A program made the translations under genes and the position numbers. The notes below the pieces were generated by a model. The model saw only the letters and a program-made list of their open reading frames with translations, ran no database searches and was not told the origin of the DNA. DNA of 37,320 nt, taken from assembly GCA_013360945.1 (NCBI GenBank), contig JABWAQ010000026.1, positions 1 to 37,320 of the forward strand. The letters are read 5' to 3'. Shown in pieces: positions 1-26,418 of this stretch (positions within the stretch are counted from its first letter, which is position 1; each line of letters starts with the position of its first letter). This stretch comes from Candidatus Brocadia sp. (lineage in GTDB: Bacteria; Planctomycetota; Brocadiia; Brocadiales; Brocadiaceae).

Positions 1-468
1 GCCGTTATCTCATGCTGTCCGGCAGACACGTTTGGTATTTCGTAAACACCCGCTACACCTTTTACGGTGTCTGTCGTAGTCGTTTCACCGGTATCAAGCA
101 TCACCGTCGCGCCATTAATACCGGCATCAGTCTGTGCGTCAGTGACCCGACCTGCAATGTTGCCAGTTCCTGGAGTTGGCGTTGGTGTTGGTGTTCCGGG
201 TACAGATACCAATTCAAAAACGAAAACGTTTTTACCCGTTTTGTCCGGGTTTCCCTCCTCTACCGTCACCGTTTGGGAAGATGAGGCATAGTTCGACGCT
301 GACGCCGTTATCTCATGCTGTCCGGCAGATACGTTTGATATTTCGTAAACACCCGCTACACCTTTTACGGTGTCTGTCGTAGCCGTTTCACCGGTGTCGA
401 GTGTCACAGTAGCGCCATTAATACCGGCATTAGTTTGTGTGTCAGTGACCCGGCCTGCAATGTTGCCC
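1..468 (-). repeat. Direct repeat, 303-base period, encoding two carboxypeptidase-regulatory-like domains
   Basis: Bases 1-165 and 304-468 are near-identical in-frame copies (period 303 bases = 101 codons), each encoding one Ig-fold domain. The 138 bases between them encode the end of the first domain and a Thr-Pro linker. The high nucleotide identity points to recent duplication. More copies may lie beyond the window edge. Confidence 0.9.
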
Positions 469-1637
469 CCCACAATTGATAGATCAATTGAAGCTTGTAC
501 CGGCACAGTGCTATCGCTGGTAGTCCCGTCTCCTAATTGACCAAAATCATTTTTTCCCCATGCCCAGGCTGTACCATCAGACTTTGTGGCCAGGCTATGA
601 TGCCCTCCACCTGCAATAGTAGCGGCGCCACTGAGGTTACTAACCTGTAGAGGAATAGTGCTGTTGTTGTTGGTTCCGTTTCCAAGTTGCCCATTGGAAT
701 TATTCCCCCACGCCAATACCGTGCCATTGGACCTCATAGCCAGACTATGAGAACGTCCGCGGTCAATAGCGACGACATCAGTGAGATTACTCACCTGAAC
801 CGGAACAAGGCTGTTCGTAGTAGTTCCGTTCCCCAATTGACCGAAGTCATTTCGTCCCCATGTCCGTACCGTACCATCAGACATCAGTGCCAGATTGTGA
901 AATCCTCCACCAGCAATGGCGATGACGCCGCTGAGATTGCTTACCTGAACGGGGACAGCGCTATTAACGGTAGTTCCATTACCCAATTGGCCGGAATCAT
1001 TTCGTCCCCATGCCCAAATCGTGCCATCTGACTTCCGAGCCAGACTGTGAAGTCCTCCACCAGTAATGGCGACAACACCGCTGAGATTGCTCACCTGTAC
1101 AGGGACAGTGCTATTAACGGTAGTTCCATTACCCAATTGGCCAAAATCATTTCGTCCCCATGCTAAAACGGTGCCGTCTGACTTCAGGGCGAGACAATGA
1201 TACCCTCCACCGTCAATGGCGATGACGCCGCTGAGATTACTTACCGGTACCGGGACACTGCTGTTCGTTGTAGTTCCGTTACCTAATTGACCAAAGTCAT
1301 TTCGTCCCCATGTCCAGACCGTACCGTCTGATTTTAGGGCCATACTGTAGTGCCGTCCACGAGCGATGAGGACGACATCGCTGAGATTACTTACCTGTAC
1401 GGGGACAGCGCTGTCGCTGGTGGTCCCATTGCCCAATTGACCAAAGTCATTCCAACCCCATGCCCAAACGGTACCTTCAGGCTTCAAGGCAAGACTATGA
1501 AACCCTCCGCCGGATACCTGAGGGTTCACCGCCGCTGATGTTGCGTCGCTAATGGACAAAAAGAGTGAAAACAAAACGGCAATGTATAAAAAAATGGTTG
1601 ACTTAACCTGGACAAGGCTAAAAGATGCGTTTCTCAT
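1..1637 (-). CDS. Secreted RCC1-repeat protein with carboxypeptidase-regulatory-like (Ig-fold) repeats; C-terminus beyond window
   Basis: The reverse strand is open from an ATG at 1637 to the window edge (about 545 codons), so the gene is 3'-truncated here. A GGAGG lies about 10 bases upstream of the ATG. An N-terminal hydrophobic stretch (FLYIAVLFSLFLSI) ending near SDATSAA is a signal peptide. Seven RCC1 units of exactly 50 residues follow, each with the pattern HSLALK.DGTVW.WG.ND.GQLG.GT; seven is the usual blade number of an RCC1 propeller. Then come two beta-sandwich carboxypeptidase-regulatory-like domains (GNIAGRVTD...GINGATV...AGVYEI.NVSAGQHEITA) separated by a PTPTPTP linker. This architecture is typical of cell-surface or extracellular proteins in planctomycetes and is probably involved in binding or matrix formation. 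Ligand and exact role are unknown. Expression is predicted to be controlled by the c-di-GMP riboswitch just upstream. Confidence 0.9.
   Translation of the reverse strand, partial: MRNASFSLVQVKSTIFLYIAVLFSLFLSISDATSAAVNPQVSGGGFHSLALKPEGTVWAWGWNDFGQLGNGTTSDSAVPVQVSNLSDVVLIARGRHYSMALKSDGTVWTWGRNDFGQLGNGTTTNSSVPVPVSNLSGVIAIDGGGYHCLALKSDGTVLAWGRNDFGQLGNGTTVNSTVPVQVSNLSGVVAITGGGLHSLARKSDGTIWAWGRNDSGQLGNGTTVNSAVPVQVSNLSGVIAIAGGGFHNLALMSDGTVRTWGRNDFGQLGNGTTTNSLVPVQVSNLTDVVAIDRGRSHSLAMRSNGTVLAWGNNSNGQLGNGTNNNSTIPLQVSNLSGAATIAGGGHHSLATKSDGTAWAWGKNDFGQLGDGTTSDSTVPVQASIDLSIVGGNIAGRVTDTQTNAGINGATVTLDTGETATTDTVKGVAGVYEISNVSAGQHEITASASNYASSSQTVTVEEGNPDKTGKNVFVFELVSVPGTPTPTPTPGTGNIAGRVTDAQTDAGINGATVMLDTGETTTTDTVKGVAGVYEIPNVSAGQHEIT
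480..1530 (-). repeat. Seven tandem 150-base RCC1-blade units
   Basis: The block encoding TVW-WG-ND recurs with exactly 150-base spacing: landmark TCCCCA(T/C)G-like segments end the ten-base blocks at about 560, 710, 860, 1010, 1160, 1310 and 1460. Period and frame are perfectly kept, so these are protein blades and not a CRISPR or satellite array. Nucleotide similarity between neighbouring units suggests unit-level gene conversion or recent expansion. Confidence 0.9.
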
Positions 1638-1777
1638 AACCTTACTGCCTCCTTTCTCCTGTTAGGGTCTTGTTTTTTTTTGTTTGATAATAGCCGGGCT
1701 TGCCCTTGCTGTTTCTCGACAATTGATAATAACAAGGTAATGTAAATGATAAAAAGATGCTTTTTGTGAATTTCCTC

Positions 1778-1835
1778 TAAAACAAAAAAGCCTTACTGCT
1801 AAGACATTCATGAAAACATCTTCGGCAGTAAGGCT
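1778..1835 (-). terminator. Rho-independent terminator, expression platform of the GEMM-I riboswitch
   Basis: On the minus strand AGCCTTACTGC (1835-1825) is complementary to GCAGTAAGGCT (1799-1789), followed by TTTTTTGTTTT. The 5' arm contains the 3' strand of riboswitch helix P3 (CCTTAC), so aptamer and terminator are mutually exclusive. That arrangement predicts read-through when the ligand is bound. Confidence 0.88.
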
Positions 1836-1928
1836 ATCTTTCTTTTTTTTCTGCCCTTGCAGAAAATAGCTTAAAGACCCTTTACTTTGCGTCCCATGGT
1901 TGCCCATGGTTTGCCTTTATCGTCATAC
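1815..1928 (-). promoter_or_regulatory. Cyclic di-GMP-I (GEMM-I) riboswitch upstream of the RCC1-repeat gene
   Basis: Minus-strand sequence shows the GEMM-I core: AAAGGCAAACC, a P2 hairpin CCATGG-GCAA-CCATGG with a GNRA tetraloop, GGACGCAAAG, then P3 (GTAAAGG...GTCTTT...AAAGATAG..CCTTAC) with an inner hairpin TTTCTGC/GCAGAAA, and TGCCGAAG at the 3' end. By alignment with the Vibrio Vc2 aptamer, the ligand-contacting position equivalent to G20 is G, which favours c-di-GMP over c-GAMP (A at this site), and the A47-equivalent is present in CGCAAAG. P1 pairing is not obvious to me. The sequence is a near-twin of the element at 12266-12370. Confidence 0.92.
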
Positions 1929-1951
1929 ATTTGTTGTTTAAAAGGTATATT

Positions 1952-1980
1952 TGTATAACATTTATAATATTTTATGTCAA
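1952..1980 (-). promoter_or_regulatory. Sigma70-type promoter for the riboswitch/RCC1 transcript
   Basis: On the minus strand TTGACA (1980-1975), a 17-base spacer and TATACA (1957-1952) form a near-consensus promoter. The predicted start near 1945 lies about 15-20 bases before the aptamer. The -35 box and following bases (TTGACATAAAAT) are identical to those of the promoter at 12211. Confidence 0.8.
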
Positions 1981-2068
1981 CTAAAAACCAATAGTCTGCC
2001 AACAGAGTTATTGCAGTATTGTCTGTGAAAAAGTTTATCGTAAACGTCGAAGCAACTTTTATATTTTC

Positions 2069-2097
2069 TTGACAGATTGCTGCTTGATAACTATCTT
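2069..2097 (+). promoter_or_regulatory. Sigma70-type promoter upstream of zwf
   Basis: TTGACA (2069-2074), a 17-base spacer and TATCTT (2092-2097) lie about 60 bases before the zwf start codon. Both boxes are close to consensus and the spacing is optimal. Confidence 0.6.
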
Positions 2098-2157
2098 GAT
2101 ACTAAGAAAATGATTCTTTAATAAGTCGCAGAGAACCAATTTGAAAAGGGGGGGCAA

Positions 2158-3696
2158 ATGGATCGCACAGAAGAAAAGGGTACTGTCAGTGAACCGCTTG
2201 GGAAGGCAGGTGACCCCTGCGTCATGGTCATCTTCGGAGCTTCCGGAGACCTGACCAAGCGCAAACTTATTCCTGCACTTTACAATCTGGCAAGTGAGCG
2301 TTTATTATCCAGAGAGTTTGCCGTCGTTGGATTTTCCCGCAGCGCAATGAGTCACGAAGAGTTCCGGGAGAAGATTAGCGAAGAAATGAAAGAATTCGCC
2401 ACGAGTTCACTTGATCCCGACTTGTGGAATAGTTTTGTCCAGCGGCTGTATTATTTGCCGGGAGATATACAGGATCCTAATGCCTACCAACGGCTTCAGG
2501 CTCTGCTATTGGAACTGGACAAAAATCACGACACCAGGGGGAATTACCTCTATTATCTGGCAACGGCCCCTGACCTATTTTCACACATTATTCAGCAGAT
2601 CGGCGAGGCCGGACTTGCATGTGAAGAAAATGGCTGCTGGCGGCGGGTCATCATCGAGAAACCGTTTGGACGCGACATCGAATCCGCCCGCTCCCTCAAT
2701 CGTGAAATCAGGAAGGTGCTGAGTGAGAGCCAGATCTATCGTATAGACCATTATCTCGGTAAGGAAACCGTGCAAAACATCATGGTTTTCCGTTTAGCCA
2801 ACGGCATCTTCGAGCCCATCTGGAATCGTCGTTACATTGACCACGTGCAAATAACGGTTGCGGAGGATATTGGTGTGGGCGAGCGCGGTGACTATTATGA
2901 CAAAGCAGGGGCGCTGCGCGATATGGTGCCGAACCATATCTTTCAGCTGCTTACTTTTACGGCAATGGAACCGCCGATCTCTTTTGATGCCGATTCCGTG
3001 CGCGATGAGCAAGTGAAGATCCTGCGCGCCATTCAGTCCATATCCCCTGAAGAAGTCCTCAGATATACCGTAAGAGGGCAATATGGCGAAGGCGCTGTTA
3101 AGGGACAGCGGGTGCCTGCTTATCGTGCGGAACCAAGTGTTCCATCCGGCTCCTTTACTGAAACGTTTGTGGCGTTGAAGCTGTATATAGATAACTGGCG
3201 CTGGGCGAACGTGCCGTTTTATCTGCGCACAGGGAAACGCCTTTCCTGCCGGGTTACCGAGATTGCTATTCAATTCAAGCAGGCGCCCTTTGTTTTATTT
3301 CGCAAAACCACCGTAAAACACCTGAAACCAAACATACTGGTGCTCCATATTCAGCCCGATGAAGGCATCTCTCTCAACTTTGGCGCTAAGATTCCCGGAC
3401 CACTCGTGCGACTGGGGACGGTTGACATGAAATTTAAGTATGAGGACTACTTTGGCCGCACGCCGAGCACCGGACATGAAAGGTTGCTTTACGACTGCAT
3501 GCTGGGAGACGCTACTCTGTTCCAACGCGCGGACATGGTTGAAGCGGGATGGAGCGTAGTGTCAACAATACAAGACGTTTGGAAGGCGCTGCCGCATCGG
3601 AAATTTCCTAACTATACAGCAGGCACCTGGGGTCCGCAGGAGGCCGACGACTTGATGGCGAAGGATGGGCGGGAGTGGAGGAAGTGTAATGGATAA
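2158..3696 (+). CDS. zwf: Glucose-6-phosphate 1-dehydrogenase
   Basis: The 512-residue product catalyses NAD(P)-dependent oxidation of glucose 6-phosphate to 6-phosphogluconolactone in the cytoplasm, the first step of the oxidative pentose phosphate pathway. The dinucleotide-binding motif [11 protein letters not shown] is near residues 27-37. The active-site signature RIDHYLGKE is near residues 195-203, with catalytic-pocket His at about 198, and the family segment LRTGKRL follows later. Length matches the usual 480-510 residues. The ATG at 2158 is preceded by a G-rich ribosome-binding site (AAAAGGGGGGG). The 6-phosphogluconolactonase gene follows 160 bases downstream on the same strand. A GGAAGGAGG at about 3700 has no start codon at the right distance and may be a relic. 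Confidence 0.97.
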
Positions 3697-3856
3697 TTGT
3701 GGAAGGAGGCATAAAAATCATCGATAGTTTAGTAGAGTATGAAAACGTGCTTTGCTAAATAGTTATGAAAGTAAATTTTGTATAGTATACAGACTCTCTG
3801 GATGGCGCCCAAAGAGGTAGTTATACGGTTGCTGTTATGCAGCGTTAAGGGAAGAT

Positions 3857-4618
3857 ATGGCCAAAGTAACTGCCAAACACGAAATCCTGGTTGTTCCGAA
3901 TCCCGATGAATTAAACCACAGGGCTGCGCAGGAATTCGTTCGGCTGGCTGAAGAAGCAGTGCGGACGAAGGGCTTTTTCTCGGTTGCGTTGTCTGGCGGC
4001 TCAACCCCAAAAGGCCTTTATGAACGGCTGGCCAGCGATCAATACCGGGAACAGGTACCATGGCCCAAGGTGTATGTATTCTGGGGTGATGAGCGTTGTG
4101 TTCCGCCGGATCATCCCGATAGTAATTACCGTATGGCCCGCGAGTCCTTCCTGGATAAGATTCCAATTCCGGAGGAGAATATCTATCGAATGATGGCAGA
4201 GTTGGAAGATCACGGTCGTGCGGCTGCGGGGTACGAGCAAACGATCAAGGCTTTTTTCCATTTAGAGACAGGCAAGAGACCCCGTTTTGACCTGATCTTG
4301 CTTGGTATGGGGGAAGATGGGCATACCGCTTCGCTCTTTCCAGAAACGCCGGCGCTTGAAGATGCAGTTCATTTGGTCTCTGCCAACTACATTGAGAAGC
4401 TCGGTGCATGCCGCCTTACCTTGACGGTACCGGTGATTAATCAAGCGTCAAATGTTCTCTTTCTGATTTTTGGTGAATCAAAGGCTTTGGTATTGAAAGA
4501 AGTGCTTGAGGGTGAATACCAACCGCAGAGATTACCCTCGCAGCTTATACGGCCAATAAGCGGCAGGCTTTTGTTTATCATTGACCGCGTGGCTGCAAGT
4601 AAACTGACGTGTATTTGA
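3857..4618 (+). CDS. pgl: 6-phosphogluconolactonase
   Basis: The 253-residue protein belongs to the DevB/NagB-like lactonase family, which hydrolyses 6-phosphogluconolactone to 6-phosphogluconate, the step after Zwf. Diagnostic segments are LSGGSTPKGLYERLA (about 47-61), FWGDERCVPPDHPDSNYR (about 75-92) and LLGMGEDGHTASLFP (about 149-163), the last holding the catalytic-site region. The ATG at 3857 has AAGGGA just upstream. Being next to zwf and on the same strand suggests co-expression of the oxidative pentose phosphate steps. A gnd gene for the third step is not in the window. Confidence 0.95.
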   Translation: MAKVTAKHEILVVPNPDELNHRAAQEFVRLAEEAVRTKGFFSVALSGGSTPKGLYERLASDQYREQVPWPKVYVFWGDERCVPPDHPDSNYRMARESFLDKIPIPEENIYRMMAELEDHGRAAAGYEQTIKAFFHLETGKRPRFDLILLGMGEDGHTASLFPETPALEDAVHLVSANYIEKLGACRLTLTVPVINQASNVLFLIFGESKALVLKEVLEGEYQPQRLPSQLIRPISGRLLFIIDRVAASKLTCI

Positions 4619-4648
4619 GATGGAGTTTAACAATGCAAGATAAACATG

Positions 4649-4712
4649 GCGCAGCATAGCCGCAACCAAGTCCCCCTCAACAAAGAAGGATCAAGGGGGT
4701 TGTGAAAAACTT
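4649..4712. repeat. Dispersed palindromic element (family also at 13659)
   Basis: CCCCCT (4672-4677) pairs with AGGGGG (4694-4699). The left flank GCGCAGCATAGCCGCAACCAA matches the left flank of the element at 13659 (GCGCAGCAAGCCGTAATCAA), and the right flank of both ends near AAACTT. This shows a mobile or duplicated unit and not chance GC-rich sequence. It lies in the 537-base gap between pgl and the M1 gene, where I see no gene. Confidence 0.6.
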
Positions 4713-5013
4713 GCAAAAAAAGAAAGATTTCACAGAGTAACACTATACGAGCGCAGGAATCTGTCCACCGAATTTTAAATGCAAAGAAACTGCTTTCAAG
4801 GCGCTTAACAAGGAGGATTTTCATAAACTTGCCCATATTTTTCTGTGACTGCTTTTCAAGCTGGTCAGCTTTACTTTCCTGATAAAGCAAGGGCATGTAG
4901 CAGGCATATTTGAAATTCTTTGCTATCAACTCTATGGTTTTGTCAAATATTTCGTCCTCCTTATTGTTGAGTTCATAGCAATGATGTTTTGTTACTGTTT
5001 GCTTTTTGTTTCA

Positions 5014-5043
5014 TTGACAGAGAATTTGCTGTAAAAATATACC
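5014..5043 (+). promoter_or_regulatory. Sigma70-type promoter upstream of the M1 peptidase gene
   Basis: TTGACA (5014-5019), an 18-base spacer and TATACC (5038-5043) predict transcription from about 5050. That leaves only about 10 bases before the first in-frame ATG at 5060, supporting the downstream GTG at 5156 as the translation start. Confidence 0.6.
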
Positions 5044-5155
5044 CATTTATAGGTATTATATGGATATGTTTTTACGCCGATATCAATATCGGCCCTCAAT
5101 GTCAATACGGAAATCTGTTTTAAAATACCCTAATATTTTGCAGAGGAGTTGCTTT

Positions 5156-7291
5156 GTGACCGTTAAAAAATTGCCTATAATGATGGCGTCATTCCTGCCA
5201 TTTTTCTTTAGTGCTATGTTATTCACTGTGTATGCTGTGGAGGCAAAGGAGAACAGGATTATTGGCCACGACCTTGAAGTTGAACTCCATCTTAAAGAAC
5301 ATACACTAAATGCCCTCGACCACATGCTGGTGTCATGCAGGAATGCTGAAAAATTTTCGTGTTTTATTAATAAGTCATTTCGGGTAGTATCAGTTAGCGT
5401 CTCAAGTAGAGAGGTTGGCGTCACGACTACACCGAGTGGAGACAAACAGCGTTTGGAGATTTCAATACCACCGGATTTGAGGGAATCGGATAGCCTGGTT
5501 CTGGATATTGCCTATGAAGGCTATCTTTTTGAAATGCCGGGTTCACCGGATAAGGAGGACGTGGGGGAAACTACCGGCACTATCGGCGAAGAAGGGGTCT
5601 ACCTGAGTCCTGCATGTGCATGGTATCCTGATATACCGGATTCCCTGGCAACTTTTCGGGTGACCGCAATTACGCCCGAAGGATATGAGGCGGTAACGCA
5701 GGGTACGCTGATAAATAAGAAATCGATGGCTGGTAAGATGTATACCACATGGGAAGAAAAGAACGTGTCTGAGGATTGCCATCTGGTAGCCGGGAGGTAT
5801 AAAGTAACGAGTATGAAGCATAATGGGATTGATATTTACGCCTATTTCTTCCCGGAGGAACAAGGTCTGGTAGAAACCTACTTAAATGCAACAAAACGTT
5901 ATCTGGATATGTACCAGAAACTTTTGGGAAACTACCCCTACGGAAAATTCGCTATCGTCGAAAATTTTTTCCAGACGGGGTACGGCATGCCTTCTTTTAC
6001 CCTGTTGGGGAGCACGGTCGTAAAATTACCCTTTATCGTGGATACCTCGCTGGGTCATGAGATATTGCATAACTGGTGGGGCAATTCGGTCTTTGTGGAT
6101 GAATCTCAGGGGAACTGGTGTGAAGGGCTGACCGTCTACTTGGCAGATTATTATTATAAAGAACTCAAAGACGCTGCTTTCGCCGAGGACTATCGCAGGG
6201 ATATTTGCAGAAAATATACAAATTATGTAACCGGGCAAAACGATTTTCCCTTAAAAAGCTTTGTCGGTAGAAAAGACCGGGTGACTCAGGCCATCGGATA
6301 CGGTAAGACGGCAATGGTATTCCATATGTTGAGGCGGATGGTTGGGGATGATTTGTTTTACCAATCATTGAGGAGATTTTACCAGGACAATATTTGGCAA
6401 CGTGCCGGCTGGAAGGATATCCAGCGCATATTCGAAGATACCTGTAAGATGGATTTATCATGGTTCTTTGAACAGTGGATTAGCCGTGAGGGCGCTCCCT
6501 TTATTGAATTAGGTGAAACAAGGGTGGAAAAGGTCGATGATGGTTGGCTGACCAAAGTAGAGGTCTTCCAATCGTACCCTCAAACATTATTGGGGAAGGG
6601 TAAACCGTACCGGCTCTTCCTGCCGGTAAATTTGGAACTGGAAGACGAAAAATTCTGCACCACTGCGGAGTTAACAGAGAGGTCTCATCTCGTTACCATC
6701 CGGACAAAATCTCAACCCAGGCATGTTGCTATAGATCCTCATTGTAATATCTTTCGTCGCCTCCATAGTGAAGAAATCCCATCTACCGTAGACCTGGTAT
6801 TGGGGGACGATGATAAGGTCATTGTGTATCCAACAGGTGGCGAAGATACTTTGCGGGAGGCATACAAAATGCTCGCAAAAACTCTGGCGGATAACAAGGG
6901 GGTTGTAAAGGCAGATACGGAGGTCACTGAAGAAGAATTAACACAAAAAAGTCTGTTTATTCTTGGAGGATTGAAGGAGAATAGACTTACTAAAGTATTT
7001 ATTAAAAATTTACCAACTAATTTTTCCCTGGAAGAGGGAGGGTTTATAGCGAATAAAGTAACATACAAGGACAGAGGCAACGCCCTGCTCGTAACTTTTA
7101 AAAACGTTAAGAATATGAAAAAAGGTGTGGTCTTGTTTACGGGTCTGAGTTCAGATGCAATTAAAAGTGTGGGATTCAAGATTCCACACTACGGGAAGTA
7201 TAGTTATCTCGCCTTTGCCGATGGGAAGAATGTGGATAAAGGGACGTTTGCTGTGACGGATAGTCCGCTCCGGCGCCTCTTGGGTAAATAA
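5156..7291 (+). CDS. Exported M1-family metallopeptidase (aminopeptidase-like)
   Basis: The product is a gluzincin zinc peptidase. The zinc motif HEILH is near residue 301 and the third ligand lies in NWCEG; 17 residues separate it from the second His, one fewer than the classical M1 spacing. Upstream, GYGMPSFTLLG stands where aminopeptidase N has its GAMEN exopeptidase motif, so substrate preference is uncertain. I chose GTG at 5156 because GAGGAG lies 7 bases before it and the product then begins VTVKKLPIMMASF, a clean signal peptide ending about AVEA. The longer form from ATG 5060 has no ribosome-binding site and would start only ten bases after the predicted transcription start. The last 200 residues after the catalytic domain are of unclear function. 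The protein probably acts in the periplasm or outside the cell. Neighbours are unrelated. Confidence 0.88.
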   Translation: MTVKKLPIMMASFLPFFFSAMLFTVYAVEAKENRIIGHDLEVELHLKEHTLNALDHMLVSCRNAEKFSCFINKSFRVVSVSVSSREVGVTTTPSGDKQRLEISIPPDLRESDSLVLDIAYEGYLFEMPGSPDKEDVGETTGTIGEEGVYLSPACAWYPDIPDSLATFRVTAITPEGYEAVTQGTLINKKSMAGKMYTTWEEKNVSEDCHLVAGRYKVTSMKHNGIDIYAYFFPEEQGLVETYLNATKRYLDMYQKLLGNYPYGKFAIVENFFQTGYGMPSFTLLGSTVVKLPFIVDTSLGHEILHNWWGNSVFVDESQGNWCEGLTVYLADYYYKELKDAAFAEDYRRDICRKYTNYVTGQNDFPLKSFVGRKDRVTQAIGYGKTAMVFHMLRRMVGDDLFYQSLRRFYQDNIWQRAGWKDIQRIFEDTCKMDLSWFFEQWISREGAPFIELGETRVEKVDDGWLTKVEVFQSYPQTLLGKGKPYRLFLPVNLELEDEKFCTTAELTERSHLVTIRTKSQPRHVAIDPHCNIFRRLHSEEIPSTVDLVLGDDDKVIVYPTGGEDTLREAYKMLAKTLADNKGVVKADTEVTEEELTQKSLFILGGLKENRLTKVFIKNLPTNFSLEEGGFIANKVTYKDRGNALLVTFKNVKNMKKGVVLFTGLSSDAIKSVGFKIPHYGKYSYLAFADGKNVDKGTFAVTDSPLRRLLGK

Positions 7292-7532
7292 GCATATCTC
7301 TTCTTGTGTTTAGAGCTTATGTTTTGACAAAAGGAATTATATTATGAAAACATCATTTCATCCATGAAACTGTACGAATGACGTCTTCGGCTAATAGCAC
7401 ATCATCATATAAAGATTTAAGTATCACTGAAATTTGCTACTTAGAAGATATTTTAAGTTTTTTATATTTTTGTTGCGTGTAGGAACGATTTTTGTCAGTA
7501 TTGTGGTCATTATTATTCGGATTGAAAAAAAC

Positions 7533-8276
7533 ATGCTAATTTATATGAAACAGTTACTTTTTCTTAGTGTCTTGTGTGTAATTTTCGGCTGGGATGCAAT
7601 ATCTTCAAAGGATATAAGGGCGGAAAAGGTTTATACCGAGATAGAGGTCACCGATGGCGGCACTGTTGTTGGCAACGTTAAATACATGGGTGATTTATCA
7701 GTGACAACATTGAATCTCTATCGTGATTGGGAATTAACCGAACCATCTAAGACGGCTTCCGAAAAACTCATTGTCAGCAAGCTTAACAACGGACTCAAAC
7801 TTGCTGTCGTTTCAATCATCGATATCACTGCAGGCAAAAAACGGGTAATACCGACCGTCCACCCGATTATAGACCAGCAGAGAAACACCTTTATTCCACG
7901 CGTTACTGCAATTCTTGCAGGGACTACGATTGACATCTTAAATGGGGATGAAGAGTTGCATACCATTCATACCAGAACCATAAAAAACCAGCCATTTAAT
8001 TTTGGGACCACCTACAAACAAAGGATAGCAAAAATGTTCGATTATCCCGAAATTATTAAACTGACTTGCGACATTCATAAAAAAACGTATGCATGGATTG
8101 TCGTCCTTGATAATCCGTACTTTGATACAACGGACAGAAACGGATATTTTGAAATTTGTGATATCCCGCCAGGAACATACAAATTCCAGGTATGGCATGA
8201 AGATTTGGGAAATTTAGAAAAGGAGGTAACGATTCATCCGAATGAAATTACGACTATAGAGTTTGTTTATTCTTAA
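7533..8276 (+). CDS. Exported cupredoxin-like protein with C-terminal carboxypeptidase-regulatory-like fold
   Basis: This is a roughly 247-residue exported protein. After a signal peptide (MKQLLFLSVLCVIFGW region, cleavage near IRA) it carries a His-containing stretch (HTIHTRT, His at about 143 and 146) and CDIH (Cys about 179, His about 182) followed by W-V-V-L. This resembles the copper-site layout of plastocyanin-like domains in the methylamine-utilisation/cupredoxin-like family. The C-terminal 60 residues (RNGYFEICDIPPGTYKFQVWHE) form a carboxypeptidase-regulatory-like beta-sandwich. It lies 88 bases before the diheme cytochrome gene and is probably co-transcribed, so electron transfer to or from the cytochrome complex is a reasonable inference. 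The start is uncertain: ATGs at 7434, 7533 and 7545 are in frame and none has a clear ribosome-binding site; 7533 or 7545 gives the better signal peptide. Confidence 0.75.
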   Translation: MLIYMKQLLFLSVLCVIFGWDAISSKDIRAEKVYTEIEVTDGGTVVGNVKYMGDLSVTTLNLYRDWELTEPSKTASEKLIVSKLNNGLKLAVVSIIDITAGKKRVIPTVHPIIDQQRNTFIPRVTAILAGTTIDILNGDEELHTIHTRTIKNQPFNFGTTYKQRIAKMFDYPEIIKLTCDIHKKTYAWIVVLDNPYFDTTDRNGYFEICDIPPGTYKFQVWHEDLGNLEKEVTIHPNEITTIEFVYS

Positions 8277-8364
8277 GAAGGGGAAGAGGAGCAAAAACTT
8301 GTATTGTTTAGACGAAGTGACGTAGTTAAGAAAATCGTAACCGGAAAGGAGGATGGGCATAATT

Positions 8365-9153
8365 ATGAAACCTAAAGTTTTATCGAATAAGGTTGGTTTA
8401 TGGTGTGCAACGACGGTAGTAAGCACTGCGCTAATGTTGGGTATTGCGCCGGTGGATGTTAGAGCCGGATTAAATGTACCAACAGAGGTTACCGAGTTGG
8501 GCAAGGATACTTACAAAAAATATTGCAGCCCCTGTCATGGAGAGGAGGGTAAAGGAGACGGACCACTGGCAAGGTCGATGCTTCCCAAGCCACGCGATTT
8601 TACGAGAGGCGCGTATAAATTTAGAACGACCCCGAGTGGTTCACTTCCTACAGATGAAGATATTTACAGGACCATTTCCTTTGGTGTTCCAAACTCTACC
8701 ATGATCCCCTGGGATGTCTTAACGGAGGAGCAGCGACTGTCGGTGATTCCTGTCCTGAAGAGTTTTTCTGAGGCGTTTGAAGTCAGGAAACCTGACCCAC
8801 CGGTAGAGGTTGGTTTGATGGTCAGACCTACGGAAAAATGTGTTGCAATGGGGAAAAAGATTTATGAAGAGAAACTGGAATGCTGGAAGTGCCATGGCAT
8901 CGAAGGACATGGAGATGGCCCCAGCGCGGCTGAGCAGGAGGACGATTTTGGATTCCCTATAAAGCCCTTTGATTTTACCACGGGAAAGTTTAAGGGAGGT
9001 AGCACACCCCAGGATGTTTATCTTAGATTTACTACGGGGTTAAACGGCACCCCCATGCCGTCGTTCGCCAAAGAGCTTAGCGACGAGGAAAGATGGTGTT
9101 TAACGTATTATGTAATGTCACTCATTAAACCAGAAGAAAATACCCATAAATAG
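8365..9153 (+). CDS. Periplasmic diheme cytochrome c, partner of the HAO-like protein
   Basis: The 262-residue exported protein has two class-I-like cytochrome c modules with CSPCH at about residue 54 and CWKCH at about 173. Each module has a following GKGDGP/GHGDGP motif and a distal Met segment (STMIPW; GTPMPSF), the probable axial ligands. AAAGGAGG ends at 8352, directly touching the ATG at 8353, so the ATG at 8365, 12 bases away, is the more likely start; it gives the signal peptide ending VDVRAG. The octaheme HAO-like gene starts 39 bases downstream. Anammox genomes encode such diheme/HAO-like pairs (for example kustc0457/kustc0458 in Kuenenia), where the diheme protein is a structural and electron-transfer subunit in the anammoxosome. 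That role is inferred from context. Confidence 0.88.
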   Translation: MKPKVLSNKVGLWCATTVVSTALMLGIAPVDVRAGLNVPTEVTELGKDTYKKYCSPCHGEEGKGDGPLARSMLPKPRDFTRGAYKFRTTPSGSLPTDEDIYRTISFGVPNSTMIPWDVLTEEQRLSVIPVLKSFSEAFEVRKPDPPVEVGLMVRPTEKCVAMGKKIYEEKLECWKCHGIEGHGDGPSAAEQEDDFGFPIKPFDFTTGKFKGGSTPQDVYLRFTTGLNGTPMPSFAKELSDEERWCLTYYVMSLIKPEENTHK

Positions 9154-9192
9154 CGTCTGAATTATGTTCTAATACCTATGGAGGTGAAAGAA

Positions 9193-10806
9193 ATGAAAAA
9201 ATTAGGGTTAGGTTTGTGTTTATCTGCGGTGATGGCGTTTACTTCTGTGGCATGGGCGGCAGAACCGCCACCCAAGAAGGAAACGCCACCGGATTTGTAC
9301 GAAGGAACGCCAGATTGGTATAAGGCGGTTTATAAAGATAATGTTGGATTGAGGGAGGGTTCAGGCCCTTTTAAGGACTATTTTAAGCCGCAGATGTTGG
9401 ATATGTACTGGCAACCTCTTAGGCATTATGAACCCATGAAGAATCTCGATCATACCATCTTCATTGAAAAAGAGAGAAGGGATTTGTGCGTAGTATGCCA
9501 TGAGGAGGCGACCCCTGGCGTGGTGCAGGACTGGAGGAGTTCGGGGCATAAAAATCCCAAAAGCACCCCATACTTGTCTGCAAGAACAGCCGAAATTGAG
9601 AAGCGTACGAACAGGATTTTAAATGAGGTTCACTGTTTCGACTGTCATGTTGACTCGAAAAAGAAGCTGATCCGGATGCCAACCGGTGATGTATGCGGGG
9701 AATGTCACAGACCTCAATTTGATGATTTCTTAAGGGAACGGGAAGTGGGCCGTCCCAATCATGTCCAATCATGGGAGGCGAATACGATTGTGCCATGGTA
9801 TGCCGAAGCTGCCCGGAGGGGTTATTTATATGGGCAACACGGTTGTGACTTGTGCCACTCGGGTGCAGAAAAATGTGATGTATGCCATACCCGGCATAAA
9901 TTTAGCGCTGCCGAAGGAAGGCAACCGGAGGCCTGCATTACCTGTCATATGGGACCTGATCATCCGGACGCTGAATCGTATGGCGAATCGAAGCACGGTG
10001 TAATCTATCATCAGGAGGAAGAACATTTTGATTTTACCAGGCCTTTAGCTGATGTAAGGCCGGGTAAGGATTATCGTACGCCGACATGTCAATACTGTCA
10101 TATGTACGAGAAGCATGGCAGGTTTATCCATAACCCCGTGATGAAGGGTATCTGGCGTATGGGTACGATACCGCCAAAAAATATTGAATACAAATCATCA
10201 CTCAAAGATTATCCGTACGGGATTAATATCATAGGAGACAAGATCGATATTTATTCAGAAGAAAATATCGCCAAGAGGTCATATTGGTTAGAAGTTTGTG
10301 CAAAGTGCCACAGCGATCGTTTTGCCGACACCTATTTGAAATCACTGGATGAATTCATGTTCCAGGCACATAAGCTGGCAGACGAGGCGCATAAGGTTAT
10401 AGACGACCTCATTGCGGATGGTCTCCTGTATCCCGGTTGGGAGGAAAAAGATCCATATCCGCTCAGCGATGGGATTGTGGCGCAACTCAGCCCCGCATTC
10501 CTTGGCGAACCGGTTTATAACGCCTTTAAGACGTTAAAAGGAAAATTCCCCGTTGTCGGACCGATTCTCGGTGTTTATGGTATGTTCTTGCAACAGCAGA
10601 ATAATCCCTCTACGATTGAGAATATGTATAATAGATTATGGTTCTGGTATAAGCTACAGGGATATAAGGGTACCGCTCACGTCCAGCAGGATGTTTCCTG
10701 GTGGTGGGGTCAGGCTCCTATGATGATGGAATTGACTAAAATCCATGGAGAAGCAGCCAGATTACGCCGGGAAGGACGTATCGAGAAAGTTTCTCTGACA
10801 AAATAG
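9193..10806 (+). CDS. Octaheme hydroxylamine oxidoreductase-like cytochrome c (probably lacking the P460 cross-link)
   Basis: The 537-residue exported protein has exactly eight CxxCH heme sites at about residues 99, 148, 168, 218, 228, 248, 299 and 369, the spacing of the HAO family. A signal peptide (LGLGLCLSAVMAF...AWA) precedes them. In P460-forming HAO enzymes a C-terminal Tyr cross-links to a heme of the next subunit. The corresponding segment here reads HVQQDVSWWWG (about 497-507), with Val near 501 where I would expect that Tyr. This suggests the reductive or non-cross-linked subgroup, of which the Kuenenia kustc0458 protein has been described as nitrite-reducing. ATG 9193 is chosen because GGAGGTGA lies just upstream, while ATG 9178 precedes that site. 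It lies behind its diheme partner and before a strong hairpin at 10850, closing the operon. Confidence 0.92.
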   Translation: MKKLGLGLCLSAVMAFTSVAWAAEPPPKKETPPDLYEGTPDWYKAVYKDNVGLREGSGPFKDYFKPQMLDMYWQPLRHYEPMKNLDHTIFIEKERRDLCVVCHEEATPGVVQDWRSSGHKNPKSTPYLSARTAEIEKRTNRILNEVHCFDCHVDSKKKLIRMPTGDVCGECHRPQFDDFLREREVGRPNHVQSWEANTIVPWYAEAARRGYLYGQHGCDLCHSGAEKCDVCHTRHKFSAAEGRQPEACITCHMGPDHPDAESYGESKHGVIYHQEEEHFDFTRPLADVRPGKDYRTPTCQYCHMYEKHGRFIHNPVMKGIWRMGTIPPKNIEYKSSLKDYPYGINIIGDKIDIYSEENIAKRSYWLEVCAKCHSDRFADTYLKSLDEFMFQAHKLADEAHKVIDDLIADGLLYPGWEEKDPYPLSDGIVAQLSPAFLGEPVYNAFKTLKGKFPVVGPILGVYGMFLQQQNNPSTIENMYNRLWFWYKLQGYKGTAHVQQDVSWWWGQAPMMMELTKIHGEAARLRREGRIEKVSLTK

Positions 10807-10849
10807 CAGACTCTGGTCTTTTACGAAAAGTCATGCTCAGTTCATAATG

Positions 10850-10884
10850 AAGAAGCCCATGATGTTATTCATCATGGGCTTCTT
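10850..10884. terminator. Strong hairpin terminator after the HAO-like gene
   Basis: A perfect 15-bp stem (10850-10864 with 10870-10884, loop TTATT) lies 44 bases after the HAO-like stop codon. It starts with AAGAAG and ends with CTTCTT, so it could stop transcription from either side, but it lacks a long U-tract after the stem. Confidence 0.7.
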
Positions 10885-10963
10885 TCGTTGTGAACTTATC
10901 AATACCGGTTTGAATAAATGGCGGGTGTTTTGTCTTTACCCTGATGTTAAAGAATTTCAAACA

Positions 10964-11005
10964 TCCCCCATAATCTCCCCGTTTACGGGGGGAAACAGAG
11001 GGGGT
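10964..11005. repeat. Nested GC-rich palindromic repeat
   Basis: An inner palindrome CCCCGTTTACGGGG (10977-10990) sits within outer C5/G5 arms (10965-10969 and 11000-11004). It belongs to the CCCCC/GGGGG palindrome type found several times in this window. It lies between the HAO-like and hemC stop codons, a 234-base convergent gap with no gene. Confidence 0.5.
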
Positions 11006-11040
11006 AAGTCGACGAAGTTCTGGTTAAAAAGGGAGAATTT

Positions 11041-11997
11041 TTATGTATTGTCAATACGCGCTTGGAATTCCTGACGTATCTCATGAAGAATTTTTCTGCC
11101 GCCGTTTTCCAGCATCCTCTCGGCAAGCTCATCTCCTACCTTTGCAGCCTTGCTGAGAGGACCGCTGTGTTTATCCCGTATTGTGTGGTCACCCTCTATG
11201 CTGCAAATGATTGCTTCAAGCTGTACTTCGTTACCTTGCGTCTGTGCATATGCTCCAATAGGCACCTGGCATCCACCCTGAAGTTTTGCTAATAAAGTCC
11301 GTTCCGCTTCTACTGCAATCCTGGTCTGCACGTCGTTAATACTTGAAACAATGTCATGAATTCGGGCGTCATTGTCACGTATTTCGATACAAAGCGATCC
11401 TTGTCCTACAGCGGATAACATAATATCGAATGGTATGATCTGGCTGATTGTACCCGTGTAACCCATTCTGCGTAACCCGGCGTAGGCAACGACAATGGCA
11501 TCCAGATCGTCTGTCTCCAGTTTTTTGAGTCTGGTATCTAAATTGCCTCGCAGGTCTAAAATTTTGAAATCAGGCCTGAAAGCCAGTAACTGTGCCTTTC
11601 TGCGGAGACTGCTTGTGCCAATACGCGCATCATCAGGTAGTTTTTCCAGGTTGGCGTGATTGTTACTGATAAGGGCATCATGGGGGTCCTCTCGTTTGGG
11701 CGTGGCGCCAATGGTTAATCCTTCATGCAACTCTGTTGGCACATCTTTAGCGCTGTGAACGGCAATATCAATCTTTCCTTTGATTAAAGCCATCTCCAGT
11801 TCCTTCGTAAACAAACCAGTCCCGCCTAAACGCGACAAGGGTGCATCGGTAATTTTGTCACCCTTTGTCGATATTTTTTCGATGTGAAATTCAAATCCAG
11901 GATGTAGTCTTTTGAGCTCTGATATGACCCAATTAGTCTGGGTAAGCGCGAGTTTACTACCCCTGGAACCGACAACAACTTTTTTTTCCTTTACCAA
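11041..11997 (-). CDS. hemC: Hydroxymethylbilane synthase (porphobilinogen deaminase)
   Basis: The 318-residue cytoplasmic enzyme polymerises four porphobilinogen units into hydroxymethylbilane in tetrapyrrole synthesis. Signature segments are GSRGSKLALTQTNWV at the N-terminus, the substrate-binding region HSAKDVPTEL, SSLRRKAQLLA, and LQGGCQVPIGAYA with the dipyrromethane-cofactor Cys at about residue 243. Length fits the family (about 310). The start codon is TTG (11997-11995), supported by GGAGAG 8 bases upstream; no ATG is available near it. The gene is alone on this strand and converges with the octaheme operon. Heme supply is a plausible shared need with the multiheme cytochromes, but no shared regulation is visible. 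Confidence 0.96.
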   Translation of the reverse strand: MVKEKKVVVGSRGSKLALTQTNWVISELKRLHPGFEFHIEKISTKGDKITDAPLSRLGGTGLFTKELEMALIKGKIDIAVHSAKDVPTELHEGLTIGATPKREDPHDALISNNHANLEKLPDDARIGTSSLRRKAQLLAFRPDFKILDLRGNLDTRLKKLETDDLDAIVVAYAGLRRMGYTGTISQIIPFDIMLSAVGQGSLCIEIRDNDARIHDIVSSINDVQTRIAVEAERTLLAKLQGGCQVPIGAYAQTQGNEVQLEAIICSIEGDHTIRDKHSGPLSKAAKVGDELAERMLENGGRKILHEIRQEFQARIDNT

Positions 11998-12210
11998 TGC
12001 AAAATCTCTCCATTATTAGAAATATGAAAGCGATTGAAAATCTATTAACAAGGTAATTTGTTTTTCTGATAATATCATAATGTGCCAGAAGTGTCAAACT
12101 ACTTTGTCTGTCGCTACTTTGAGAGAATGGATTAATCTGCCTTTATAAGCGTCATCAAAGGAGTTTCTTGCAGAATCATGCACGACTGGTAAATTTTATT
12201 ATATTTTTGC

Positions 12211-12240
12211 TTGACATAAAATGCCGTTCGGGTTTATATA
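12211..12240 (+). promoter_or_regulatory. Sigma70-type promoter for the riboswitch/tandem paralog transcript
   Basis: TTGACA (12211-12216), an 18-base spacer and TATATA (12235-12240) lie about 25 bases upstream of the aptamer. The -35 context TTGACATAAAAT is the same as in the promoter at 1952-1980 on the other strand. Confidence 0.75.
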
Positions 12241-12265
12241 AAACTATATAGTAACAAGAATACAT

Positions 12266-12370
12266 AACGACAAAGGCAAACCCTGGGTGATCAGGGGACG
12301 CAAAGTAAAGGGTCTTACTAGTCGTTTCAGTGGTTTAAACCGCCTATAAGATAGCCTTACTGCCGAAGAT
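12266..12370 (+). promoter_or_regulatory. Cyclic di-GMP-I (GEMM-I) riboswitch upstream of the tandem exported-protein genes
   Basis: The core motifs are AAAGGCAAACC, P2 CCTGG-GTGA-TCAGG with a GNRA loop, GGACGCAAAG and TGCCGAAG. P3 pairs GTAAAGG (12305-) with CCTTAC (12355-12360) and TCTTA (12313-12317) with TAAGA (12347-12351); an inner arm GTGGT-TTAA-ACCGC caps it. Compared with the copy at 1815-1928, P2 and the upper P3 differ in sequence yet keep pairing (TCTTA/TAAGA here, TCTTT/AAAGA there), which is covariation support. The G20-equivalent is G, favouring c-di-GMP. P1 is weak or not evident. Confidence 0.93.
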
Positions 12371-12410
12371 TTTTTCTATGAATATCTTTGCAGTAAGGCT
12401 GTTTTATTTT
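12353..12410 (+). terminator. Rho-independent terminator, expression platform of the riboswitch
   Basis: AGCCTTACTGC (12353-12363) pairs with GCAGTAAGGCT (12390-12400), followed by GTTTTATTTT. The 5' arm overlaps the 3' strand of P3, so ligand-stabilised P3 should prevent terminator formation and turn expression ON. The stem sequence is identical to that of the minus-strand copy at 1789-1835. Confidence 0.88.
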
Positions 12411-12442
12411 AAGGACGTTTAGTTTTTAAAGGAGATACAACA

Positions 12443-13003
12443 ATGTATTTCTTCAGGATACCGATAAAATGCATGATTATCGTAGCAGTCTTATCGATGA
12501 TGTATGTGGGAATCGAAGTTGTCGCATGGAATTCAATCACTTCATATACGGTATTCGGCGAACATCCGGAGCAAAAGGCGCGTCTTAAAGAAATTGAAAA
12601 ATCGATCGTAACCTTAGATGACGTTGCAAAGTATGCAGAGGAGTACATTCAGAAAAATTCCAGGGACGGCGTTTTCAAATACTATGATAAAAATGCCAAA
12701 AAAGAGTTGGAATTGACGCTTGACAAGATACACCGGGAGAAGCTCTCAAAAACGAAAAAGGATGAATATTTCGTCTGTGCAGATTTCAAGGGAAAGGATG
12801 GTAATACGTACGATCTTGACTTTTTTGTACAGGGGAAAAGCAAGAATTTTTTAAATGTTGATAAAAAAAGCATCTCCATCCACAAGGTAAACGGAAAGGA
12901 AAATTACACCTGGAACTACAATGAAAAGAAAGGGGTGTGGGAGAAGAAAACTATTAAAACCGGGAAGAAAGAACCAGAACATCCTAAGCCTGAGTATCCT
13001 TAA
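12443..13003 (+). CDS. Exported protein of unknown function, riboswitch-controlled, paralog 1
   Basis: I do not recognise this 186-residue family. It has an N-terminal hydrophobic segment (IKCMIIVAVLSMMYVGIEVVAW) consistent with a signal peptide or anchor. A conserved central region follows: DDVAKYAEEYIQKNS, DGVFKYYDKNAKKELEL, DEYFVCADFKGKDGNTYDLDFFVQG, then IHKVNGKENYTWNYN. A Lys/Pro/Glu-rich tail ends in PEHPKPEYP. The ATG has AAAGGAGATACAACA upstream. The next gene encodes a close paralog (most of residues 60-165 align). It is the first gene after the c-di-GMP riboswitch, so it is probably made when c-di-GMP is high and may act at the cell surface or in the matrix. The mixed alpha/beta core and charged composition suggest a small binding domain; no catalytic motif is visible. 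Confidence 0.85.
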   Translation: MYFFRIPIKCMIIVAVLSMMYVGIEVVAWNSITSYTVFGEHPEQKARLKEIEKSIVTLDDVAKYAEEYIQKNSRDGVFKYYDKNAKKELELTLDKIHREKLSKTKKDEYFVCADFKGKDGNTYDLDFFVQGKSKNFLNVDKKSISIHKVNGKENYTWNYNEKKGVWEKKTIKTGKKEPEHPKPEYP

Positions 13004-13110
13004 GAAAAGTCAGTGTCACCGGCATCGTCGGTAATACTGGCTGAAAATATCTGTATCAGTAAATTTGTGGCTTTTCATAAAGCAATATTTTTAATAAAGG
13101 AGATCCTACA

Positions 13111-13659
13111 ATGCGCGTGTACACAATATTGAAGAATGGCTTGACCGCAGCAGGAGTCTTATCGATTATGCTGGGATTGAGCGCCTCAACTGCCTTATCT
13201 CAAAGAGAGCATCCCGGCCAGGCAATACCTTACACAGCGGAAGAGAAACCGCGTATAACCAAAGAGGATGTAGCAAAATTCGCAGATGAATACATTCGAA
13301 AGAATTCCAAGGATGGTGTATTCAAGCATCTCGATAAGAACACAGGAAAGGAACTGGAGCTGATGCTTGACAAGGTGCACAAGGAAAAACTCTCTCCGAC
13401 AAAGACGGATGAATATTTTATCTGTGCCGATTTTAAAGGAAAGGACGGTAATACCTATGACCTGGACTTCTTTGTACAGGGCACCAGTAAGAATAATTTG
13501 AGGGTTGACAAGGCGAGCATTTCCGTTCACAAGGTAAATGAAAAAGAAAATTATACCTGGAGCTATAATAGGAAGGCAGATGTTTGGGAGAAGAAGGCTA
13601 TCATCATTGAAAAAGAATATCCTGAACCTGCAAAGAGGGAGCATCCGGGAAATCCATAG
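13111..13659 (+). CDS. Exported protein of unknown function, paralog 2
   Basis: The 182-residue tandem paralog of the preceding gene shares EYIRKNSKDGVFKHLDKN, KTDEYFICADFKGKDGNTYD and HKVNEKENYTWSYN with it. The N-terminus has a convincing signal peptide (GLTAAGVLSIMLGLSASTALS, cleavage near ALSQR). Just after cleavage comes REHPGQAIPY, and the C-terminus repeats the idea with KREHPGNP; both paralogs carry EHP motifs near each end. The ribosome-binding site is AAAGGAGATCCTACA. It lies 107 bases after paralog 1 with no terminator seen between, so both are probably on the riboswitch-controlled transcript. Function unknown. A palindromic repeat begins at the last base of its stop codon. Confidence 0.85.
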   Translation: MRVYTILKNGLTAAGVLSIMLGLSASTALSQREHPGQAIPYTAEEKPRITKEDVAKFADEYIRKNSKDGVFKHLDKNTGKELELMLDKVHKEKLSPTKTDEYFICADFKGKDGNTYDLDFFVQGTSKNNLRVDKASISVHKVNEKENYTWSYNRKADVWEKKAIIIEKEYPEPAKREHPGNP

Positions 13660-25938: not shown

Positions 25939-25971
25939 CTATGTTCCAAAATATTCTGAGAGGTAACAAAT

Positions 25972-26418
25972 ATGAAAAAATTTGATGTTGAAATTGCCGT
26001 CGGTATCTTTGTCTTTTGTGGCATACTTTGCCTGGGTTATATCTCAGTAAAGCTGGGAAAAATTAATTTGATAGGTGATCATTATTACCCGGTAAATGCC
26101 GTCTTTAGCACAGTAAAAGGACTTAAAAAAGATACCGTTGTGGAAATAGCAGGAGTGGAAGTGGGTAAGGTTGCTGACATCAAGCTCATCGATTATGAGG
26201 CAGTGGTCACCTTGAGGATTCGAAACGATATAGAACTCCAGGAAGACGCTATCGCATCTATCCGTACCAAGGGACTCATGGGAGAAAAGTATGTAGAAAT
26301 CATGCCTGGAGGATCAGATGAATTGATAAAACCCGGAGGTTCATTGCATGAGACAGAACCTCCGATTGATTTAGAGAAATTGATAGGAAACTTTGTTTTT
26401 GGGAAAGTAAAGGAATGA
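25972..26418 (+). CDS. mlaD: MCE-domain protein MlaD
   Basis: The 148-residue protein has one N-terminal membrane anchor (IAVGIFVFCGILCLGYISV) and a single MCE domain (YYPVNAVFSTVKGLKKDTVVEIAGVEVGKV split across about 36-67, then SIRTKGLMGEKYVEI). MlaD hexamers form the periplasmic lipid channel on the permease. The length fits the short single-MCE type with no long coiled-coil needle. The ribosome-binding site GAGAGGTAA is upstream. Its stop overlaps the start of mlaC by four bases (ATGA). Confidence 0.94.
   Translation: MKKFDVEIAVGIFVFCGILCLGYISVKLGKINLIGDHYYPVNAVFSTVKGLKKDTVVEIAGVEVGKVADIKLIDYEAVVTLRIRNDIELQEDAIASIRTKGLMGEKYVEIMPGGSDELIKPGGSLHETEPPIDLEKLIGNFVFGKVKE

Follow-up and report, generated by a model that had tools for sequence, protein, structure and literature searches.

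Large sets of cyclic di-GMP (c-di-GMP)-I riboswitches, also known as GEMM-I, with many copies per genome, are carried by Geobacter and its relatives, which belong to a phylum different from that of the organism studied here. CsrB and RsmZ are short RNAs whose GGA hairpins sequester the RNA-binding protein CsrA. Here we analysed a 37,320-nucleotide (nt) stretch of Candidatus Brocadia sp. (contig JABWAQ010000026.1 of assembly GCA_013360945.1), hereafter the window, which contains two c-di-GMP-I elements. Judging from their sequences, these are very probably antitermination riboswitches of the GEMM-I class, two of about 36 in this genome. In the class I numbering used in the available part of PMC3764141, the P2 loop occupies positions 32-35 and the pairs include G45-C22 and G14-C93, while the bases contacting c-di-GMP are G20, A47 and C92 in the excerpted text of PMC4744006. 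One pocket base has been linked to the sensing of cyclic AMP-GMP (c-AMP-GMP) (PMC9481103, in excerpt). As a precedent for CsrA sites within an aptamer, the available part of PMC7652899 describes the molybdenum cofactor (Moco) riboswitch in the moaA leader of E. coli. A literature search, with most subscription journals outside its scope, found neither this regulon nor a c-di-GMP riboswitch with a CsrA site described.

The window is the entire contig C190 of a 196-contig, 3.85-Mb genome (G000), whose elements were named A01-A38, the two in the window being A07 and A10; those of a sister genome (G006) were named B01-B58. An Rfam scan of the window found two c-di-GMP-I clan elements above the gathering score, both full length. 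The left aptamer lies at 1924-1820 on the minus strand (66.1 bits, E = 1.2e-13) and has the P2 loop GCAA, and the right aptamer lies at 12266-12368 on the plus strand (64.3 bits, E = 4e-13) and has the P2 loop GUGA. Both have a GNRA P2 tetraloop and G20, A47 and C92. Each aptamer runs into a predicted intrinsic terminator. On the left this spans 1779..1835 (minus strand), with a 5' arm at 1835-1825 within the aptamer and a 3' arm at 1799-1789 followed by a T-rich run (fold of -28.3 kcal/mol, z -5.7). On the right it spans 12353..12409 (plus strand), with the corresponding arms at 12353-12363 and 12390-12400, again followed by a T-rich run (-31.8 kcal/mol, z -8.8). The initial annotation had described two oppositely oriented c-di-GMP cassettes with a shared aptamer core and exported targets, and this was confirmed by Rfam and, for the signal peptides, by a home-made rule. 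The identical 11-bp terminator stem that it pointed out is also present, but the identity is partly forced because the 5' arm is a conserved strand of the aptamer.

The tails of both window aptamers contain AGCCTTACTGC, and downstream GCAGTAAGGCT is followed by T-rich sequence. The terminator 5' arm, AGCCUUACUGC, is the 3' strand of the aptamer helices P3 and P1, so aptamer and terminator should be mutually exclusive, and ligand should therefore turn the genes ON. Without ligand, AGCCUUACUGC would pair with downstream GCAGUAAGGCU to form the intrinsic terminator. With c-di-GMP bound, the 3' strand of P3 and P1 would be kept in the aptamer, the terminator would be blocked and the genes would be transcribed. 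We infer this direction, along with the identity of the ligand and a physiological role that is probably tied to a sessile or granular lifestyle. The rule applied here required a T-run and an 11-nt arm able to pair with the aptamer strand with no more than one mismatch; it was passed by 36 of 38 copies in G000 and 52 of 58 in G006 (32 and 42 without mismatch), and in these the terminator arm overlaps the aptamer as in a terminating ON riboswitch. Compensatory changes on both sides of the terminator stem were found in four pairs (A24, A29, B30 and B57, of which A24 lies on a suspect contig). The terminator pairing, checked at one position, was present in the minimum-energy fold of the full leader in all 34 copies folded that bear the P3 motif described below. 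In other genera (L336-L338 of G024 and L334 of G018) the platform is apparently different; by eye, the downstream hairpin ends in a TTGGGTCTTTTTTT-like sequence in which the 5' strand of P3 is repeated.

Searches of G000 with RF03167 and RF01051 gave the same 38 places, of which 37 scored above 35 bits with RF01051 and the last 33 bits. The further copies that the initial annotation had proposed looking for were found, 36 more in G000 and 22-58 in each of ten other Brocadia genomes. All 33 family genomes searched had at least one match, with 23-28 in genus g5 (Jettenia-like) and 1-23 in the remaining genomes. Across the phylum, a match was found under stricter filters in 135 of 392 genomes, generally a single one outside the family. 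These copy numbers are possibly low, at most 99 candidates per genome having been scored in the family search and 11 places per genome in the phylum search. In an exact scan of genome contigs for the platform, all of the matches listed (at least 80) came from Brocadia, Brocadiaceae, Jettenia, Kuenenia, Scalindua or planctomycete records. The contamination of G000 is 5.29%, and contigs C35 (A06) and C161 (A24) matched G017 at 100% identity over 3,121 nt and at 99.9% over 1,837 nt, respectively. G017 is a Jettenia-like genome, and 3 of its 24 riboswitch loci have 94-100% matches in Jettenia ecosi contigs. These two contigs (L036 and L052) are probably contaminants or very recent transfers, leaving about 36 copies. 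The platform of A02 differs from the others, and A02 is possibly native because B02 and B06 of G006 likewise have another platform. On this comparative sequence evidence the predicted regulon is real; 13 GGDEF domains are encoded in G000.

The target genes are mixed. Signal peptides and gene starts were assigned by the home-made rule, and the test took the 77 of 96 first genes that encode at least 100 amino acids (aa). The background was 167 of 294 open reading frames (ORFs), those with a Shine-Dalgarno match, from 20 hand-picked stretches of G006 away from riboswitches. A signal peptide or lipobox was predicted for 44 of 77 first genes in the pooled set against 43 of 167 in the background (Fisher P = 2.4e-6), and for 32 of 47 in G006 (P = 1.6e-7). 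The enrichment of exported proteins expected in the initial annotation therefore held for the pooled set and G006, but not for G000 taken alone. Its idea of a surface regulon for adhesion or matrix proteins was too narrow, as the targets include sigma-54 regulators, injection systems and a radical-SAM gene. Pfam matches among the targets include RCC1, laminin-G-like, IgGFc-binding, beta-propeller, beta-helix and Ig-like proteins, as well as sigma-54 activators (A04 and A33), LodA (A27), radical-SAM (A21), a sugar transferase (A36) and a caspase-domain protein (B52). The target of A11, whose terminator fails the rule, is a molybdopterin oxidoreductase. GGDEF-EAL proteins follow A38 and B57, which are weak aptamer matches (38.3 and 28.2 bits), and another is encoded in the operon of A24 on its suspect contig. 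The proteins behind A13, A15 and A29 are otherwise different and have in common a C-terminal domain of ~115 aa with a basic tail (L057:3157-4701, L044:1248-3338 and L041:3496-4899), which is perhaps an anchoring or sorting domain and has seven matches, in about six genes, in the genome. Behind A06, on the suspect contig C35, lies a candidate cluster for a ribosomally synthesized and post-translationally modified peptide (L036:7595-8791), with four small Cys-rich peptides followed by a radical-SAM/SPASM gene.

The most surprising part is a hairpin at the tip of P3, which sequence and structure statistics point to as a candidate CsrA site. The motif ACARGGA was found at the variable P3 tip of 12 of 38 G000 copies and 17 of 55 parsed G006 copies, while shuffles averaged 0.6 and never exceeded 4, and 0-3 of 96 flanking 60-nt windows contained it. 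Parsing for this count succeeded for 93 of 96 inserts, all except those of B41, B55 and B57; by eye, the motif is present in B41 and B55. The Rsm motif A/UCANGGANGU/A, as given in the accessible part of PMC4353343, occurred in 34 of 96 P3 regions, whereas the same loci gave an expectation of 0.5. Selection of CsrA ligands in vitro (SELEX) yielded RUACARGGAUGU, in which AC and GU mostly pair and enclose a GGA-bearing loop (excerpt of PMC7652899); A03, B07 and B10 match this sequence exactly. The GGA fell in the apical loop of 47 of 50 distinct hairpins, other species included, and of 29 of 31 in a stricter set, compared with a mean of 15 and a maximum of 22 with shuffled flanks (40 runs). Among the GGA sites of P3 inserts, 32 of 74 were CANGGANG in a GGA-anchored count of 88 copies, 8 of 96 having been dropped as duplicates or suspected contaminants. 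The position entropies of the motif are partly forced by the search pattern; the shuffle, flank and GGA-anchored counts are unforced. CsrA (PF02599) is encoded in 11 of 11 Brocadia genomes and 23 of 33 family genomes, and csrA of G000 lies beside fliW and a flagellin-like gene. The motif-bearing copies combine what is expected of a CsrA/RsmE site, a motif with GGA in a hairpin loop and a CsrA protein encoded in the same genome. Neither window copy carries a GGA hairpin: the P3 tip of the left aptamer is a plain hairpin without a CsrA-like motif, which is absent from the right aptamer as well.

The motif is unevenly distributed. Among named records, 68 aptamers were parsed from at least 80 loci and ACARGGA was found in 24, with 6 of 12 in WS118, 3 of 5 in B. 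sapporoensis and 0 of 3 in Jettenia ecosi. None of three Jettenia genomes had a CsrA match. In the Jettenia-like G017 the motif was found in 1 of 24 copies, compared with 30 of 93 for G000 and G006 together (P = 0.003; A02, A06 and A24 were excluded, and B41 and B55 were scored by eye), a difference confounded by descent because CsrA-bearing other genera also lack the motif and mostly have a short P3. In these other sampled genera, 0 of 24 pattern-matched aptamers in 20 stretches had ACARGGA, though CsrA is encoded in 5 of 8 genomes; the stretches were taken from top-scoring, hence short, matches.

With a little less than even confidence, we propose from these predictions that about one third of the copies are two-input devices, in which the aptamer would sense c-di-GMP and the P3-tip GGA hairpin would bind CsrA. 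Since the fold of the terminated leader contains the hairpin as well, many short CsrA-binding RNAs would be set free when c-di-GMP is low, which would link two global lifestyle regulators by way of the riboswitches. Bound CsrA could make P3 more stable; alternatively, terminated leaders could serve to titrate CsrA. By contrast, the hairpin may resemble the CsrA consensus but act as a structural cap or as a Shine-Dalgarno-like standby site, an unlikely explanation but one to be taken seriously. A motif copy occurs in a Jettenia-like genome without a CsrA match (L310) and another in a Scalindua record, B. carolinensis has the motif in 0 of 4 parsed copies, and in aptamers folded alone the GGA lies in the apical loop in only 25 of 34 copies. 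However, the loop position is found in 30 of 34 full leaders and exceeds that with shuffled flanks, the informative positions of A/UCANGGANGU/A are matched and not merely AAGGA, and CANGGANG accounts for the share of P3-insert GGA given above. Other variation at P3 was also seen. A GTAGGGGCG... palindrome in some P3 loops was considered as a genome-wide mobile repeat and rejected, all five matches to a strict pattern in 347 kb of G000 loci lying inside aptamers. With a looser pattern, plus-strand matches numbered 4 in the G000 loci and 1 in the G006 loci, and a regular expression for this P3 type found 4 copies, an undercount relative to ~13 of 38 by eye.

The remaining alternatives concern the ligand and the origin of the copies. 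RF03167 (c-di-GMP-I-GGC) beat RF01051 on E-value in clan competition for both window copies (3.1e-15 and 1.0e-14 versus 7.7e-13 and 4.7e-13 in the genome search), its gathering score was reached by both of them and by 21 of 38 copies in all, and its name would imply a GGC variant with an altered ligand. This is very improbable. Bit scores slightly favour RF01051 (67.1 and 68.1 versus 66.1 and 64.3), and the RF03167 consensus, read from its alignment and family name, has G47, whereas both window copies have A47 with G20 and C92. They were therefore not assigned to the GGC variant; in score, contact bases and P2 tetraloop they agree with RF01051. Among G000 copies, G20 was found in 37 of 38, A47 in 37 of 38 (A26 was not parsed and has A by eye) and C92 in all 38; in G006 the counts were 52, 55 and 56 of 58, with unparsed copies scored as misses. 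The pocket base tied to c-AMP-GMP sensing in the excerpt of PMC9481103 would be position 20 by our own alignment, and among the 38 G000 copies A20 occurs only in A33, the sole one that deviates at the contact bases. Because A47 is retained, c-di-GMP is the likely ligand, and the GGC label appears misleading here. Besides the E-value lead of RF03167, some results weigh against the main reading. The right aptamer folded alone is no more stable than its own shuffles (z -0.8; the left has z -4.5), and eight copies fail the terminator rule, 2 of 38 and 6 of 58 (A02, A11, B02, B06, B47, B54, B55 and B58). Six of 96 copies have no sense ORF within 700 nt by rule (A26, A30, A37, B16, B47 and B51); A37 is cut by a contig end, and in A30, B16 and B47 the sense ORF starts inside the platform and is excluded by the rule. 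The export enrichment in G000 alone, 12 of 30 against the G006 background of 43 of 167, was not significant (P = 0.086).

The initial annotation had proposed duplication of the whole cassette. Three pairs (A16/A21, A15/A29 and A05/A26) have upstream DNA, aptamer and terminator in common, with 121-299 nt upstream at 84-98% identity, and their similarity ends 36-42 nt past the aptamer, where the terminator lies. These pairs support copying of the predicted cassette onto new targets. Most copy pairs are alike within the cassette only, and the targets of A15 and A29 are partly related through their common C-terminal domain, so that a wider duplication is possible in that pair. Such likeness might reflect ordinary descent with selection on the aptamer and not copying to new genes, which we consider unlikely given the other two pairs. 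A16 and A21 agree at 242 of 284 aligned nt upstream, including a small open frame, and A05 and A26 at 120 of 122; both diverge 36-39 nt after the aptamer and continue into unrelated sequence, which in A26 has no sense gene within 700 nt. The regulon would thus have expanded, at least partly, by copying of a leader-aptamer-terminator block before new genes, many for exported or envelope proteins and others for regulators and injection machines. Rather improbably, the copies could instead be a semi-selfish repeat that spreads by itself, many of them decayed or regulating nothing. Only about 9 of 38 targets in G000 recur with a riboswitch in G006 (by first-gene BLAST or common downstream DNA), A08 adjoins a transposase gene (Y2_Tnp), A26 has no sense target, and A37 (L061, G000:C163:516-725) has a P3 insert. 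The insert is 139 nt long and its ends, TCTGTCCAAAAA ... TTTTTGGACAG, are inverted, so that it resembles a small mobile element within the aptamer. On the other hand, terminator pairing is maintained through compensatory change, ligand bases are mostly retained, and several riboswitches have stayed with their targets while the proteins diverged to 62-86% identity. The link on the right of the window is old. A homologue of its first target gene lies behind a riboswitch in G006 (68% identity), and for the second gene a same-strand riboswitch lies upstream of the homologue in 8 of the 9 Brocadia genomes with one (G000 included; not G008), compared with a single case (G031, 37.6 bits) among 7 genomes from other genera, in a survey that scanned 20 of 29 loci with 1.5-kb flanks.

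Contractile injection systems are among the predicted targets. The operon behind A19 on contig C47 encodes Pvc16, sheath, tubes, spike, PAAR and the gp25 baseplate, the components of an extracellular contractile injection system together in one operon, and its riboswitch lies 2.2 kb beyond the sigma-54 gene that A33 leads. A family-wide search with the sheath (E ≤ 1e-20) matched five Brocadia genomes (G000, G005, G006, G008 and G010), and a same-strand riboswitch lay 0.4-4 kb upstream in all five. No riboswitch was found at six sheath loci of other genera (five genomes; at the G016 locus only ~0.95 kb upstream was available). Apart from that of G005, the sheaths show a similarity of only 41-49% to the query. 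For the sigma-54 homologue (E ≤ 1e-110), 6 of 7 Brocadia genomes, all but G003, had a riboswitch no more than 0.4 kb upstream, and there was none at three scanned loci of three genomes of other genera (a second G018 locus lay outside the scan). A/UCANGGANGU/A is matched by each of the six riboswitches linked to sigma-54 genes, and the first N is A or G in five of them. Two of the six have A20, namely A33 (L048, G000:C47:34800-34919) and, by eye, its homologue in G004 (L264:9849-9975).

Promoters are common among the copies, but a single shared promoter is not supported. In the window, a left promoter-like pair on the minus strand (TTGACA 1980-1975, 17-nt spacer, TATACA 1957-1952) and a right one on the plus strand (TTGACA 12211-12216, 18-nt spacer, TATATA 12235-12240) were recognized by consensus match only. 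TTGACATAAAAT has two exact matches in the window, at 1980-1969 (minus) and 12211-12222 (plus), at -56 and -55 relative to the aptamers; when two mismatches are tolerated it has 10, no more than the 8.8 expected by chance. By eye, over the 70 nt upstream of each G000 copy, the exact context is confined to the window pair, and a good sigma-70-like pair lies within 90 nt upstream in 16 of 38 copies (shuffles: mean 2.0, maximum 7). The shared -35 context of the initial annotation therefore stands for the two window copies, and one promoter for all 38 was rejected. Tandem arrays of an 8-mer (ACACACTA-type, ~13-21 copies) lie between the TTGACA box and the aptamer of A05, A26 and B01 (L035, L053 and L063), and A08 has a 9-mer array of 11 copies. 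TGTGACATG-CACA-like palindromes are repeated ~150-220 nt upstream of A15, A29, A34, B29 and B37, in about three tandem copies by Tandem Repeats Finder in four of the five loci and by eye in A15. They resemble operators of what we take to be CRP/FNR-type regulators.

In the window, the left target (3..1637, minus strand) is open at the contig end and has a predicted signal peptide, RCC1 repeats and CarboxypepD_reg domains. The first right target (12443..13003, plus strand) encodes a 186-aa protein with a predicted signal peptide and no Pfam match, and the second (13111..13659, plus strand) a 182-aa paralogue with 67% identity over ~150 aa and, by eye, a hydrophobic N-terminus. YajQ (DUF520; 36677-37171) had been put forward as a candidate c-di-GMP effector, but the Rfam scan of the window found no riboswitch on it and no link to the system was found. 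A DUF7948/SBBP propeller protein at 32899-35298 (minus strand) is without a riboswitch; the same Pfam domains follow one in G006 (B44, B50 and B54). A snoZ266 match at 25958-26045 (plus strand) is below threshold (34.8 bits against a cut-off of 43) and almost surely due to chance.

Because anammox bacteria form granules as they grow and no member of Candidatus Brocadia is available in pure culture (available part of PMC11224092), regulation in this genus is hard to study. The 22-58 riboswitches per genome name predicted c-di-GMP-induced genes, including those for extracellular proteins and contractile injection systems. If CsrA does bind the P3 hairpin, a multi-copy riboswitch class would be wired to a global RNA-binding regulator, giving a testable sponge model. 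The Brocadia elements resemble Vibrio Vc2 and RF01051 in architecture, in G20, A47, C92 and the GNRA P2 loop, and in mixed targets that include surface proteins. They differ in their number per genome, in the one stereotyped terminator, and in the P3-tip hairpin of CsrA consensus in about one third of copies in two Brocadia genomes. We know of no such hairpin in the GEMM-I sets of the Geobacter type. Like CsrB and RsmZ, the candidate CsrA binders of Brocadia would be short RNAs that display GGA, but they would be terminated riboswitch leaders with one hairpin each. CsrA-type sites inside a riboswitch aptamer are shared with the E. coli moaA leader, which, as far as the excerpted source describes it, has another ligand and aptamer class and acts by translational control at one locus, whereas Brocadia has many copies with candidate CsrA sites.

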